A stretch of DNA of 9,440 nt from DASVDK01 sp036562265 [NCBI: Thermodesulfobacteriota bacterium] (GTDB lineage Bacteria > DASVDK01): contig DATCKS010000198.1 of assembly GCA_036562265.1 (NCBI GenBank), positions 1-9,440 of the forward strand. The letters run 5' to 3'. Position 1 is the stretch's first letter. The number at the start of each line of letters is the position of its first letter. Below, piece after piece: positions 2,422 to 8,319 of the stretch. Both the position numbers and the translations under genes were made by a program. The notes under the pieces were generated by a model, which saw nothing but the letters and a program-made list of their open reading frames with translations, did not search any database and was not told the DNA's origin.

Positions 2422-3132
2422 GTGCCGGCCCGCGGCCTCCGGGGACCGCGCGCGGCGGCGCTGGTCCTCGCGGTTGCCTGCCTCTGCTCGACGGCGGCAG
2501 CGGCGGGCACGGCGCCGCGGGGCGAGGACACGGGCATGAGGGGCCTCTTCCTCGGCGGCGGCCGAGAGCGGGGCCCGATCACGATCGACGCTCGCCGGTT
2601 CGAGGTGGACAACAAGCGCCGGACGGCCACCTACAGCGAGCAGGTCGTCGCACGGCAGGCCGACACCACGCTCACCGCCGATCGGCTCGTGCTCGCCTTC
2701 GACGAGAGCCGGCGGATCTCGCAGGTGACGGCGGAAGGGAGCGTGAGGATCGTGCAGAAGGTGGCCGAGGCGCCCGGGGTTCCGCCGGCCGAGCGCGAGG
2801 CGACCTGTGCGAAGGCGGTCTTCGCGGTGACGGACGACCGCATCGTCTGCACCGGGACGCCGGCGTCGATGCGGCAGGGCGACGACGTGATCCGGGGGGC
2901 CCGGATCACCGTGTGGGTGGCCGACGAGCGGATCGTCGTGGAGGGCGACGACGCGTCCCCGCGAGTCACCTCGCGGATCACGCCGAGGCCCGAGGCCTCC
3001 GGCGGGGGCCGGGCCGGCTCCGCGGGGGAGCCTGGCGGCGCGGGGCCGTCGCGCGAGGCCGGAGGCCGGCCGGGCCCGCGGGGCCAGGCGGGGGCCACGA
3101 GCCAGGCCGGCAGCGCCCGGCCCGCCAATTGA
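2422..3132 (+). CDS. lptA: LPS transport periplasmic protein LptA (OstA-like), with low-complexity tail
   Basis: LptA polymerises into the periplasmic bridge that carries LPS from LptC to the outer-membrane LptD. The 236-residue precursor begins with an Arg-containing n-region and a hydrophobic core (about residues 11-28), a likely Sec signal peptide cleaved near AAAAG. Cys20 sits in LAVAC, a poor lipobox, so lipidation is possible but unlikely. The OstA/LptA beta-jellyroll spans about 52-175, with typical [26 protein letters not shown], and [10 protein letters not shown] near its end. From about residue 189 to 236 the protein is a Gly/Pro/Ala/Arg-rich tail of unknown role; E. coli LptA has 185 residues in all. 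A GGAG (2409-2412) lies 9 bases before the GTG start. The stop overlaps the lptB ATG by one base (TGATG). Confidence 0.92.
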
Positions 3133-3894: not shown

Positions 3895-5325
3895 ATGGCA
3901 CTCGAGATCAAGCAGAACCTCAAGCTCTCGCAGCAACTGATCATGACGCCGCAGTTGCAGCAGGCGATCAAGCTGCTGCAGCTCTCGCGGCTCGAGCTGG
4001 TGGACCTGGTCCAGCAGGAGCTGACGGAGAACCCGGTGCTCGAGGAGGCGCCGGAGGACTACCAGTCCGAGGAGTCGAAGGCCGAGGGCCCCGAGGAGAA
4101 CCTGGAGCAGCAGGCGAGCGAGGAGAAGCCGGCCTCCGAGATCGACTCGAAGAGCGACATCGACTGGGACAACTATCTCGAGAACTACAGCGCGTCGTCG
4201 TACACCGCCTCGTACGAGGACGAGGAGCGTCCGTCGTTCGAGAGCACCCTGACCCGCAAGGCGTCGCTCACCGACCACCTCCTCTGGCAGCTCAAGCTCG
4301 CGGAGTTCCCGCCGGAGGAGGAGGAGATCGGATCGCTCATCATCGGCAACCTCGACGACGACGGCTACCTGCAGGCCGACATCGCCGAGATCGCGAAGCA
4401 GGCGGCGGTGCCGGTCGAGAAGGCCGAGGCGGTCCTCAAGCGCATCCAGGAGTTCGATCCGGTCGGCGTCGCCGCGCGCAACCTCCAGGAGTGCCTGCTC
4501 ATCCAGGCGTACCACCTGGGGCTCAAGGGCTCGCTCGCCGAGCAGATCCTCAAGCGGCACCTCCAGAACCTGGAGAACAAGAACTACAACGCCATCGCGA
4601 AGGACCTCGGCGTGAGCCTCCAGGAGGTCATCGACGCGGTGCGCGTGATCGCCCGCATGGAGCCGAAGCCGGGGCGGCCCTACGCCACCGAGGAGCCGCA
4701 GTACATCACGCCCGACATCTACGTCCACAAGGTCGGGGACGACTACGTCGTCGTCCTCAACGAGGACGGGATGCCGAAGCTGCGCATCTCCTCCTTCTAC
4801 AGGAACGCGCTCCACAACTCGGGCGACGGCGTCGCCAAGGAGTACATCCAGGACAAGCTCCGCTCGGCCGTCTGGCTCATCCGCAGCATCCACCAGCGGC
4901 AGCGGACCATCTACAAGGTCACCAAGAGCATCATCAAGTTCCAGCGGGAGTTCTTCGACAAGGGCGTCGCCTACCTGAAGCCGCTCGTCCTGCGCGACGT
5001 GGCCGAGGACATCCAGATGCACGAGTCCACGATCAGCCGCGTCACGTCGAACAAGTACGTCCACACGCCGCAGGGCGTCTTCGAGCTGAAGTTCTTCTTC
5101 AACTCGTCGATCAACCGGACGGACGGCGATCAGGTCGCCTCGCAGAGCGTGAAGGACAAGATCCGGCAGATCGTGGCCACCGAGAACCCGCGCAAGCCCT
5201 ACAGCGACCAGAAGATCGTCGAGATCCTCAAGCAGGCTGACATCGACATCGCCCGCCGAACGGTGACGAAGTACCGCGAGATGATGGGCATCCTCTCCTC
5301 GACGCAGCGCAAGAGGCTCTTCTAG
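3895..5325 (+). CDS. rpoN: RNA polymerase sigma-54 factor RpoN
   Basis: Sigma-54 directs RNA polymerase to -24/-12 promoters and needs AAA+ activators to open DNA. The 476-residue protein (E. coli 477) has the Gln/Leu-rich activator-interacting region I (1-50, with LSQQLIMTPQLQQAIKLLQL). A strongly acidic, Ser-rich region II follows (about 51-115), then the core-binding domain (about 120-300, with FDPVGVAARNLQECL at 187-201). A helix-turn-helix lies around 366-389 (VAEDIQMHESTISRVTSNKYV), and the RpoN box ARRTVTKYRE is at 453-462. All parts are intact. TAAGG (3883-3887) lies 7 bases before the ATG. The 28-base gap after lptB is too short for much regulation, so it is probably co-transcribed with lptCAB. 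This gene has the lowest G+C feel in the window because of its Lys/Glu/Gln/Asn content, but nothing suggests transfer. Confidence 0.98.
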   Translation: MALEIKQNLKLSQQLIMTPQLQQAIKLLQLSRLELVDLVQQELTENPVLEEAPEDYQSEESKAEGPEENLEQQASEEKPASEIDSKSDIDWDNYLENYSASSYTASYEDEERPSFESTLTRKASLTDHLLWQLKLAEFPPEEEEIGSLIIGNLDDDGYLQADIAEIAKQAAVPVEKAEAVLKRIQEFDPVGVAARNLQECLLIQAYHLGLKGSLAEQILKRHLQNLENKNYNAIAKDLGVSLQEVIDAVRVIARMEPKPGRPYATEEPQYITPDIYVHKVGDDYVVVLNEDGMPKLRISSFYRNALHNSGDGVAKEYIQDKLRSAVWLIRSIHQRQRTIYKVTKSIIKFQREFFDKGVAYLKPLVLRDVAEDIQMHESTISRVTSNKYVHTPQGVFELKFFFNSSINRTDGDQVASQSVKDKIRQIVATENPRKPYSDQKIVEILKQADIDIARRTVTKYREMMGILSSTQRKRLF

Positions 5326-5391
5326 GTGCTCGGGGCCTCGACCGCGGGCGGGCGTCCGGCGACCTCGCCGCGCGGGCGTACGATGCCGGTC
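5326..5391 (+). other. Gap after rpoN with no recognisable gene
   Basis: These 66 bases lie between the rpoN stop and the first recognisable hpf remnant. They contain a small inverted repeat, CGGCG (5357-5361) / CGCCG (5366-5370) with an ACCT loop, with no T-rich tract after it, so it is not a convincing terminator. No frame shows the N-terminal half of HPF. It may be scar sequence from the deletion that removed the hpf start. Confidence 0.4.
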
Positions 5392-5560
5392 GGCCATCGG
5401 CTGGAGGCGGCGGCGCCGGTCCGCCGTCTCGCGATCCAAGCGGCAGAGGAGACCTAGCGACATGTACGCGGCCATCGACCTCGTCGTCGACAGGCTCGAC
5501 CGACGGATCGACCGGACCCGAGAGCGGCGTCGCGAGCCGCGCCGGAGCACCTGGGCGTGA
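5392..5560 (+). pseudogene. hpf: Decayed hibernation-promoting factor (C-terminal half, frameshifted)
   Basis: HPF normally sits between rpoN and ptsN and binds the 30S subunit to silence ribosomes. Here only its 3' half is recognisable. Bases 5462-5560 read MYAAIDLVVDRLDRRIDR..., the classic C-terminal helix of HPF. Just before it, one frame over, 5392-5454 read GHRLEAAAPVRR then LAIQAAEET, and end at a TAG (5455-5457). Skipping the single T at 5455 joins the two as ...EET-SD-MYAAID. The distance from His (5395) to the Asp before MYAAID is then 22 residues, the same as in E. coli HPF as I remember it. The first roughly 45-50 residues of HPF are absent: 5326-5391 is too short and none of its frames resembles the family. 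The result is a 5' deletion plus a one-base shift. A sequencing error could explain the shift but not the missing half. Confidence 0.72.
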
Positions 5561-6018
5561 AGATCACCGACTTCCTGGCCCCCGACAGCGTGGTGGCCGA
5601 CCTCGATGCCACCACCAAGCGTGACGTGCTCGGCCGCCTGGTGGACACGCTGGCGGCCGCCGAGCCCGACATCCAGCCGGCGCGGCTGGTCGAGGCGCTC
5701 CTCGAGCGCGAGCGGATCGGCTCGACCGGCGTCGGCGACGGCGTCGCCATCCCGCACGCGAAGCTGAAGGGCCTGAGGCGGCTCGCCGCGGCCTTCGGCC
5801 GCAGCCGGGCCGGCGTCGACTTCGAGGCGGTCGACGGCCGGCCCTGTCACCTCTTCTTCCTCCTGGTCGCCCCCGAGGAGGCCGCGAGCGATCACCTGCG
5901 CGCGCTGTCCCGCATCGCGAGGCTCATGCGCGACGCGGAGGTCAGGCGGCGGCTCGTCGAGGCGCCCGATGCGGCGGCGATCTACGCGCTCCTGGCCGAG
6001 GAGGACGACAAGCTCTAG
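5557..6018 (+). CDS. ptsN: PTS-Ntr EIIA component (nitrogen regulatory IIA protein)
   Basis: PtsN is the terminal phosphoryl acceptor of the nitrogen-related PTS. In proteobacteria it acts by protein contact on targets such as potassium transport and stress signalling rather than by sugar uptake. The 153-residue protein is a single PTS EIIA type-2 (fructose/mannitol-type) domain. The phosphorylatable histidine is His67 in GVAIPHAKL, preceded by the typical RERIGSTGVGDG (51-62). The E. coli protein is 163 residues with His73 as acceptor. The GTG start at 5557 overlaps the TGA of the hpf remnant (GTGA), with GGAG (5544-5547) 9 bases upstream. It therefore appears to have kept the coupling junction of the ancestral hpf-ptsN pair. 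Starting at MKITDFL matches the usual N-terminus. Its donor (HPr or NPr, enzyme I or EI-Ntr) is not encoded in the window. Confidence 0.95.
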   Translation: MKITDFLAPDSVVADLDATTKRDVLGRLVDTLAAAEPDIQPARLVEALLERERIGSTGVGDGVAIPHAKLKGLRRLAAAFGRSRAGVDFEAVDGRPCHLFFLLVAPEEAASDHLRALSRIARLMRDAEVRRRLVEAPDAAAIYALLAEEDDKL

Positions 6019-6999: not shown

Positions 7000-7889
7000 A
7001 GGCCGGGACCACGCCCGTCGCGCCCGATGCGATCCGGGTGGTGATCGTCACCGGCCTGTCGGGCGCCGGCAAGAGCACCGCCATCCACGCGCTCGAGGAC
7101 CTCGGCTTCTTCTGCGTCGACAACCTGCCGGCCGCGCTCTTCCGCGACCTCCTCGAGGTCTGCCGCTCGGGCGGCGTGACCAAGGTGGCGCTCGGCATGG
7201 ACCTCAGGTCCCGGGAGTTCGCGGCCTCGACGCCGCGGCTGCTCGCGCCCATCCGGGCCGCCGGCTACCGGGTGGAGTTGCTCTACCTCGACGCCTCCGA
7301 CGAGGCGCTCATCCGGCGCTACTCGGAGACCCGCCGGCGGCACCCGCTGGCCGAGGGGGACAGCGCCGTCGACGGCATTCGACGCGAGCGGGCCCTCCTG
7401 GCCGACCTGCGAAGCGTGGCGGACCAGGTGATCGACACGACCGGCCTCAACGTCCACCAGCTCCGCGACGCCATCCGCGAGCGCTACCTTGCCGACTCCC
7501 GGGTGAAGCGGCTGACCGTGACGCTCGTGTCGTTCGGCTTCCGCCACGGGCTGCCGCCCGAGGCCGACCTCGTCATGGACGTCCGGTTCCTGCCCAATCC
7601 CTACTTCGTCGACTCGATCAAGGCCTTCGACGGCAGCGAGCCGGAGGTCGCCCGCTACGTCTTCCAGTCCCCCGCCGCCACCGAGTTCCTCGAGCGGCTC
7701 GTCTCGATGCTCGACTTCCTGCTGCCGCTGTACGAGCGCGAGGGCAAGGCGTACCTCACCGTCGCCATCGGATGCACCGGCGGCCAGCATCGGTCGGTCG
7801 CCATGGTGCTGGCGCTGGCCGAGCGCCTGGACCGCGAGCGCTACCTTGTCCGGGTACGCCACCGGGACGTGGACCGGGACCGGCGCTAG
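6996..7889 (+). CDS. rapZ: RNase adapter / nucleotide-binding protein RapZ (YvcJ family)
   Basis: In E. coli RapZ senses glucosamine-6-phosphate and delivers the small RNA GlmZ to RNase E. In other phyla its targets are largely unknown. The 297-residue protein has a P-loop kinase-like N-terminal domain with Walker A GLSGAGKST (20-28) and GFFCVDNLP (37-45). The C-terminal domain holds SFGFRHGLPPEADLVMD (179-195), RFLPNPYF (197-204) and the phosphate-binding GCTGGQHRS (259-267). It ends in a basic tail, VRHRDVDRDRR, comparable to the RNA-binding end of the E. coli protein (284 residues). The extra length is mainly at the N-terminus. The ATG at 6996 overlaps the hprK stop. The frame is open further upstream, but that part is only an off-frame reading of hprK. 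Whether a GlmZ-like RNA exists here cannot be told. Confidence 0.96.
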   Translation: MKAGTTPVAPDAIRVVIVTGLSGAGKSTAIHALEDLGFFCVDNLPAALFRDLLEVCRSGGVTKVALGMDLRSREFAASTPRLLAPIRAAGYRVELLYLDASDEALIRRYSETRRRHPLAEGDSAVDGIRRERALLADLRSVADQVIDTTGLNVHQLRDAIRERYLADSRVKRLTVTLVSFGFRHGLPPEADLVMDVRFLPNPYFVDSIKAFDGSEPEVARYVFQSPAATEFLERLVSMLDFLLPLYEREGKAYLTVAIGCTGGQHRSVAMVLALAERLDRERYLVRVRHRDVDRDRR

Positions 7890-7904
7890 AGTGAAGGGCG
7901 ACAC

Positions 7905-7910
7905 GGAGGG
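7905..7910 (+). promoter_or_regulatory. Ribosome binding site that decides the EIIA start
   Basis: GGAGGG lies 10 bases before the ATG at 7921, in the 31-base gap after rapZ. It supports that ATG over longer starts (GTG 7891 or further upstream), which would add residues with no counterpart in the EIIA-Man family. The ATG at 7913 is out of frame. Confidence 0.6.
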
Positions 7911-7920
7911 ACATGCGGCT

Positions 7921-8319
7921 ATGGTCGGAGTGGTCGTGGTCGCGCACGGTCGGCTGGCCGAGGAGTACCTGGCGGTGACCGAACTCATCGTGGGGCGGCT
8001 CCCGCAACTGGCGGCCGTGGCGGTCGGACCGCAGGACGGCAGCGACGCCGTCCGCGAGCGTCTCTCGGCGGCGATCGCCGAGGTGGACGGCGGCGACGGG
8101 GTCCTGATCCTCACGGACATGTTCGGCGGGACCCCCTGCAACATCGGGCTGTCCCTCTACGACGGCGAGCGCGTGGACGTCGTCTCGGGTGTGAACCTGC
8201 CGATGCTGATCGCGCTGTCGAGCCACCGCGAGGGCAAGAGCCTGTCGGAGCTCGCCGCCTTCCTGAAGGCGTACGGGCAGAAGAACATCAACCTGGCGAG
8301 CGAGATCCTGACCCGGTGA
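7921..8319 (+). CDS. PTS mannose-family EIIA component
   Basis: This is a 132-residue stand-alone EIIA-Man domain, which takes a phosphoryl group from HPr and passes it to EIIB. The fold begins directly with VGVVVVAHGRLAEEYL, where His9 in AHG is the phosphorylation site. LTDMFGGTPCNIG (64-76) carries the conserved Asp66 that supports the active-site histidine. GVNLPML (90-96) is a further family signature. In E. coli ManX the EIIA and EIIB domains are fused; here they are separate genes, the usual arrangement next to hprK-rapZ in related Gram-negative lineages. The sugar specificity cannot be read from the sequence. A regulatory role, as proposed for incomplete systems of this kind, is possible, but the EIIB and EIIC that follow allow a real permease. 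The stop overlaps the EIIB start (GTGA). Confidence 0.94.
   Translation: MVGVVVVAHGRLAEEYLAVTELIVGRLPQLAAVAVGPQDGSDAVRERLSAAIAEVDGGDGVLILTDMFGGTPCNIGLSLYDGERVDVVSGVNLPMLIALSSHREGKSLSELAAFLKAYGQKNINLASEILTR

Follow-up and report, generated by a model that had tools for sequence, protein, structure and literature searches.

A probable hpf pseudogene between rpoN and ptsN in an otherwise intact sigma-54 cluster

The gap between rpoN and ptsN in the stretch of DNA analyzed here (9,440 nucleotides in all; "the window") probably holds a pseudogene of hpf, the gene for a ribosome hibernation factor of the S30AE family, within a sigma-54 cluster that is otherwise intact. The second half of the S30AE/HPF domain sits in this gap, split over two reading frames. 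We imagine that hpf formerly stood in its usual place between the two genes, that a deletion took its first ~41 residues together with the start, and that a one-base frame change interrupted the rest. An initial annotation had likewise proposed a loss by deletion plus frameshift, and this is still the best reading, with the frameshift visible in this sequence and the deletion deduced purely from absence. With nearly half of the domain gone, the remnant seems unlikely to yield a working ribosome-binding protein. The loss appears confined to hpf, as rpoN, ptsN, and hprK all look intact.

The window comprises a sigma-54 cluster of the diderm type, which we read as kdsD, kdsC, lptC, lptA, lptB, rpoN, ptsN, hprK, rapZ, and mannose-type PTS genes. 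The identities of rpoN, ptsN, and hprK were confirmed by Pfam with near full-length family matches, and all three are open. The other names in this list are our presumption, read from the translations, and their backing is limited to matches in the loci of relatives. A passage of a published comparison describes a conserved context for rpoN in diderms, with yhbH (HPF), PTS-Ntr, lptABC, and kdsCD (PMC3162934). The upstream neighbor of the gap, rpoN (positions 3895 to 5325, forward strand), encodes sigma-54 and is intact (Sigma54_AID, Sigma54_CBD, and Sigma54_DBD at 62.2, 224.1, and 215.5 bits; GC by codon position, 0.61/0.32/0.98), as is the downstream neighbor, ptsN, encoding EIIA-Ntr (5557 to 6018, forward strand; PTS_EIIA_2, 118.3 bits). 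From the rpoN stop codon (5323 to 5325) to the GTG of ptsN at 5557, the gap measures only 231 nt. No Rfam family reached its gathering score within the window, and no promoter- or terminator-like site was found at 5200 to 5700. Elsewhere in the cluster, the product of the presumed lptA ORF has a C-terminal tail of ~45 residues rich in Gly, Ala, Pro, and Arg (2990 to 3129).

Taken by itself, the frame that carries the MYAAID motif matches PF02482 (88 positions; cut-off, 23.7 bits) at 29.2 bits (E = 1.6e-6, positions 60 to 88), which is above the cut-off; the upstream frame, that of 5326, matched no Pfam family on its own. When the two frames are joined, the score rises by 8.5 bits to 37.7 (E = 3.5e-9) and the match extends over positions 42 to 88, which is still short of the complete domain (1 to 88). 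The joined query gave two further Pfam matches, both below their cut-offs (RHH_10, 16.6 bits; Arb1, 11.8 bits). With NCBIfam TIGR00741 (cut-off, 40.9 bits), the joined query passes at 43.2 bits and the MYAAID frame alone falls below at 28.1. The downstream piece also matches solved HPF chains by sequence (6gzx, E = 0.00091; 2ywq, E = 0.0013).

A local HMM built from the HPF domains of 49 relatives scored the downstream piece alone at 29.3 bits and the piece joined via the frame of 5326 at 39.9 bits, a gain of 10.6; joining via the other two forward frames gave 29.1 and 28.5 bits. None of 6,000 control upstream pieces reached 39.9 bits, the maxima being 35.3 for dinucleotide-shuffled, 34.8 for codon-position-shuffled, and 37.6 for random window pieces (0 of 2,000 for each type). 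Because the joined score was unmatched by these controls, the frame break within HPF is real in this sequence, and HPF sequence is interrupted by it. The local HMM aligns only ~12 residues of the upstream frame, and BLASTP of the joined protein begins at its own residue 17, corresponding to homologue residue 42 (39% identity over 51 aa to L011). Detectable HPF similarity spans ~5374 to 5557, beginning a little further upstream than the remnant start of 5392 first assigned. For the first ~41 S30AE positions neither the local HMM nor BLASTP detected any remnant, as the initial annotation had held. Apart from the MYAAID frame, nothing in the window scored above 2.0 bits with the local HMM, and the 2.0-bit match lies on the minus strand inside rpoN.

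All parts of the remnant are on the forward strand. The first 48 nt of the gap (5326 to 5373), where the missing N-terminal half would have its place, are without detectable HPF similarity by the local HMM, the joined match beginning further downstream. The frame of 5326 opens with a GTG that immediately follows the rpoN stop and runs for 43 codons to a TAG at 5455 to 5457; within it, positions 5374 to 5454 make up the upstream piece, covering S30AE positions ~42 to ~60 as judged from the gain on joining (Pfam and local HMM) and from BLASTP. Six-frame reading puts the TAG in frame with this piece and the one-base frame change at about the same point. The MYAAID motif (ATG at 5462) is in the next frame, which has no stop between 5285 and the TGA at 5558 to 5560. 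The downstream piece (5459 to 5560) comprises DMYAAID, the last S30AE helix, eight further residues, and the TGA. This open frame, which carries DMYAAIDLVVDRLDRR, ends with its TGA overlapping the ptsN start, and the overlap with ptsN is 4 nt. Across the frame break the join is gap-free, with EET on one side and SDMYAAID on the other, and relatives L007, L015, and L027 read EETSDMYSAID. The earlier claim of continuous HPF-like sequence on joining is thus borne out by the join and by the PF02482 and TIGR00741 scores. A single extra T at 5455 had been named as the cause of the in-frame TAG; the TAG and the frame break stand, but a single sequence does not fix the changed base uniquely, and T 5455 is one of the compatible choices.

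Codon usage, trained on the window's own genes (with rapZ left out of the comparison), gave 0.01 bits per codon for 5326 to 5454 and 0.34 for 5456 to 5557, compared to 0.45 to 1.18 for the window genes and -0.74 to -1.18 for shifted frames; both pieces are weaker than the genes, yet both beat the shifted frames. The signal of the upstream piece is weak. In sliding 60-nt segments, the frame of 5326 was best only for starts at 5350 to 5398, with frame 5328 best at 5326 to 5338 and the MYAAID frame best from 5410, where the segment contains the TAG; GC by codon position for 5326 to 5388 (0.71/0.86/0.90) is not coding-like. The downstream piece is still gene-like in codon usage, and no stop interrupts its frame before the ptsN start, both of which count against a pseudogene. 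It looks as though the decay of hpf happened recently or translation of the downstream piece continues.

For comparison of the slot, an RpoN scan of genome contigs kept 80 of 396 relatives, none of them close (best-segment identity, 53 to 63%); the best RpoN identity in the tree was 65%, and no well-supported group took in the window. By its GC content and gene order, the window might come from Rokubacteria. A full-length HPF lies behind rpoN in 75 of the 80 loci, so that the initial statement that HPF occupies this place in most rpoN clusters holds among the relatives surveyed. With the rpoN-linked hpf of the HPF/YfiA family (PF02482, TIGR00741), the window remnant shares the last part of S30AE with DMYAAID and the place between rpoN and ptsN. 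Relative to these intact homologues of the same slot, which come from distant relatives, it is truncated and frame-broken: the first ~41 domain residues are missing, and the TAG and frame change leave no single open frame with a start. S30AE matches occur in 107 of 118 genomes drawn from the phylum to which L049's genome belongs, 12 of the 107 having two; none of the 119 matches listed is a C-terminal fragment like that of the window, each covering at least positions 6 to 83. A single S30AE match was found in eight of nine relatives' genomes checked. Genome G054 has a copy near hprK and, on a different contig (L094), a further S30AE match of 60.4 bits within an open frame of 410 aa.

Searches with HprK over even draws from what were in effect two phyla (57 + 57 genomes, 56 shared, and 59 + 59, 58 shared) gave a best identity of at most 55%; the 118-genome S30AE draw shares its phylum and genomes with the latter pair. 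RpoN and HprK scans of viral contigs found no relatives, and a plasmid search (225 records) returned only RpoN, below 60%. Among the titles and abstract openings listed in the literature searches, none described hpf decay next to rpoN.

The remaining five loci comprise two with an N-terminal stub (L006 and L032), two with nothing before ptsN (L062 and L072), and one with no HPF in 864 bp (L017). The first four resemble the window in having no intact hpf in that rpoN slot. Unlike in the window, the N-terminal end survives in L006 and L032, where ptsN is also absent from the vicinity, and no hpf piece at all is left in L062 and L072. In these last two (rpoN stops at 7455 and 7458, respectively), ptsN follows rpoN by ~22 to 28 nt with no hpf between, and two S30AE matches lie elsewhere in the L062 genome, one of them weak and in a 1029-aa open frame. 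L006 and L032 are sister rows in the RpoN tree, and in both the stub is followed by other sequence. In L032 (1806 to 2072), the HPF behind rpoN stops after ~49 model positions, and this stub, under the Pfam cut-off, is the sole S30AE match of its genome. Besides two N-terminal HPF stubs (L006, 7422 to 7556; L099, 866 to 1093, counted on the minus strand), the L006 bin contains a separate contig, L095, on which rpoN-HPF-ptsN is intact, and we therefore rejected L006 as a second case of hpf loss. The sequence after the L006 stub (7598 to 8029) also follows the L099 stub, at 90% identity, as though a single element or strain variant had broken hpf twice. Because this bin also holds an intact copy, it shows that a broken hpf copy in a bin need not mean that the gene has been lost.

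The same bin bears on the possibility that the organism has an intact hpf and that the contig is misjoined, collapsed, or carries an indel at this point. We consider such an assembly or sequencing artifact unlikely, but it deserves some weight: the window may be a metagenome contig, poor local assembly can produce two faults, a deletion and a frame change, in one short GC-rich stretch, the downstream piece keeps a gene-like codon usage, and in the L006 bin the stub stands beside an intact copy ~92% identical in DNA. Arguing for a faithful sequence are the open frames and family matches of rpoN, ptsN, and hprK, the 4-nt overlap with ptsN that the remnant keeps, as an ordinary operon junction would, and the repeats at 5200 to 5700, which are only short and imperfect.

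If the window does hold an hpf pseudogene, the ancestral form of the protein decides what the remnant represents. In all 52 relatives with the order rpoN-HPF-ptsN, HPF is long (~173 to 206 aa, as estimated from HMM alignment starts), and the slot measures ~539 to 1074 nt, versus 231 nt here. For the other 23 full-length slot HPFs, no ptsN was found within 1.5 kb; 21 of these are 101 to 121 residues long, and two are 209 and 239. The long form thus accounts for 54 of the 75. The joined piece is closer to it, at 40.4 bits with a domain HMM built from 54 long-form sequences against 20.1 with its counterpart built from 21 short-form sequences, a comparison confounded by kinship, as 16 of the 21 short-form sequences are labeled Bdellovibrionota and are more distant. 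Long-form HPF of the relatives has a C-terminal dimerization domain, which the window remnant lacks: an HMM for this domain, which recovers 54 locus ORFs at >30 bits, gave no match in any of the window's six frames (best, -0.1 bits). Judged from these sequence comparisons, the ancestor was likely long-form and both ends were lost. In that case the remnant would be an internal piece, and a deletion would have removed the C-terminal dimerization domain as well. This argument draws on distant relatives, and enterobacteria are known to combine this gene order with a short HPF. The initial description of the slot as holding only the C-terminal half of HPF is correct in that the second half of S30AE is present, in two frames, but would be right as a whole only if the ancestor was short-form.

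The persisting coding signal of the downstream piece would also suit a leader ORF, kept after hpf function had gone, with translation from ATG 5462 to TGA 5560 feeding ptsN via the overlapping stop and start. An AGAGGAG 10 nt before this ATG makes a 32-aa product possible, and its TGA overlaps the ptsN GTG. Such a leader is not needed, because a GGAG already stands 9 nt ahead of the ptsN GTG; an ordinary operon junction also leaves an overlap of this kind, and the same arrangement was seen in none of the relatives. We regard this reading as very improbable. Just as much of a long shot is its extension to a whole lineage outside the sampled groups, which would have dropped rpoN-linked HPF, retained the last helix as a leader of 32 aa that is under constraint and couples ptsN translation to the operon, and left hibernation to an unlinked factor or to none. 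Programmed +1 frameshifting at the TAG, joining the two ORFs into a mini-HPF, can practically be dismissed: it would fit with GTG 5326 coming right after the rpoN stop and with a purine-rich, SD-like stretch immediately preceding ACC-TAG, in an arrangement that loosely resembles the prfB site, but the prfB slippery codon is not ACC, 5326 to 5388 is not coding-like in its codon-position GC, and a product missing nearly half of S30AE would hardly bind ribosomes.

With an hpf pseudogene as the preferred reading, the organism may use another S30AE protein, another route to hibernation, or none. As a single contig, this is an ordinary decayed gene; if hpf is truly lost, the lineage would be one that either depends on a different hibernation factor or manages with none.
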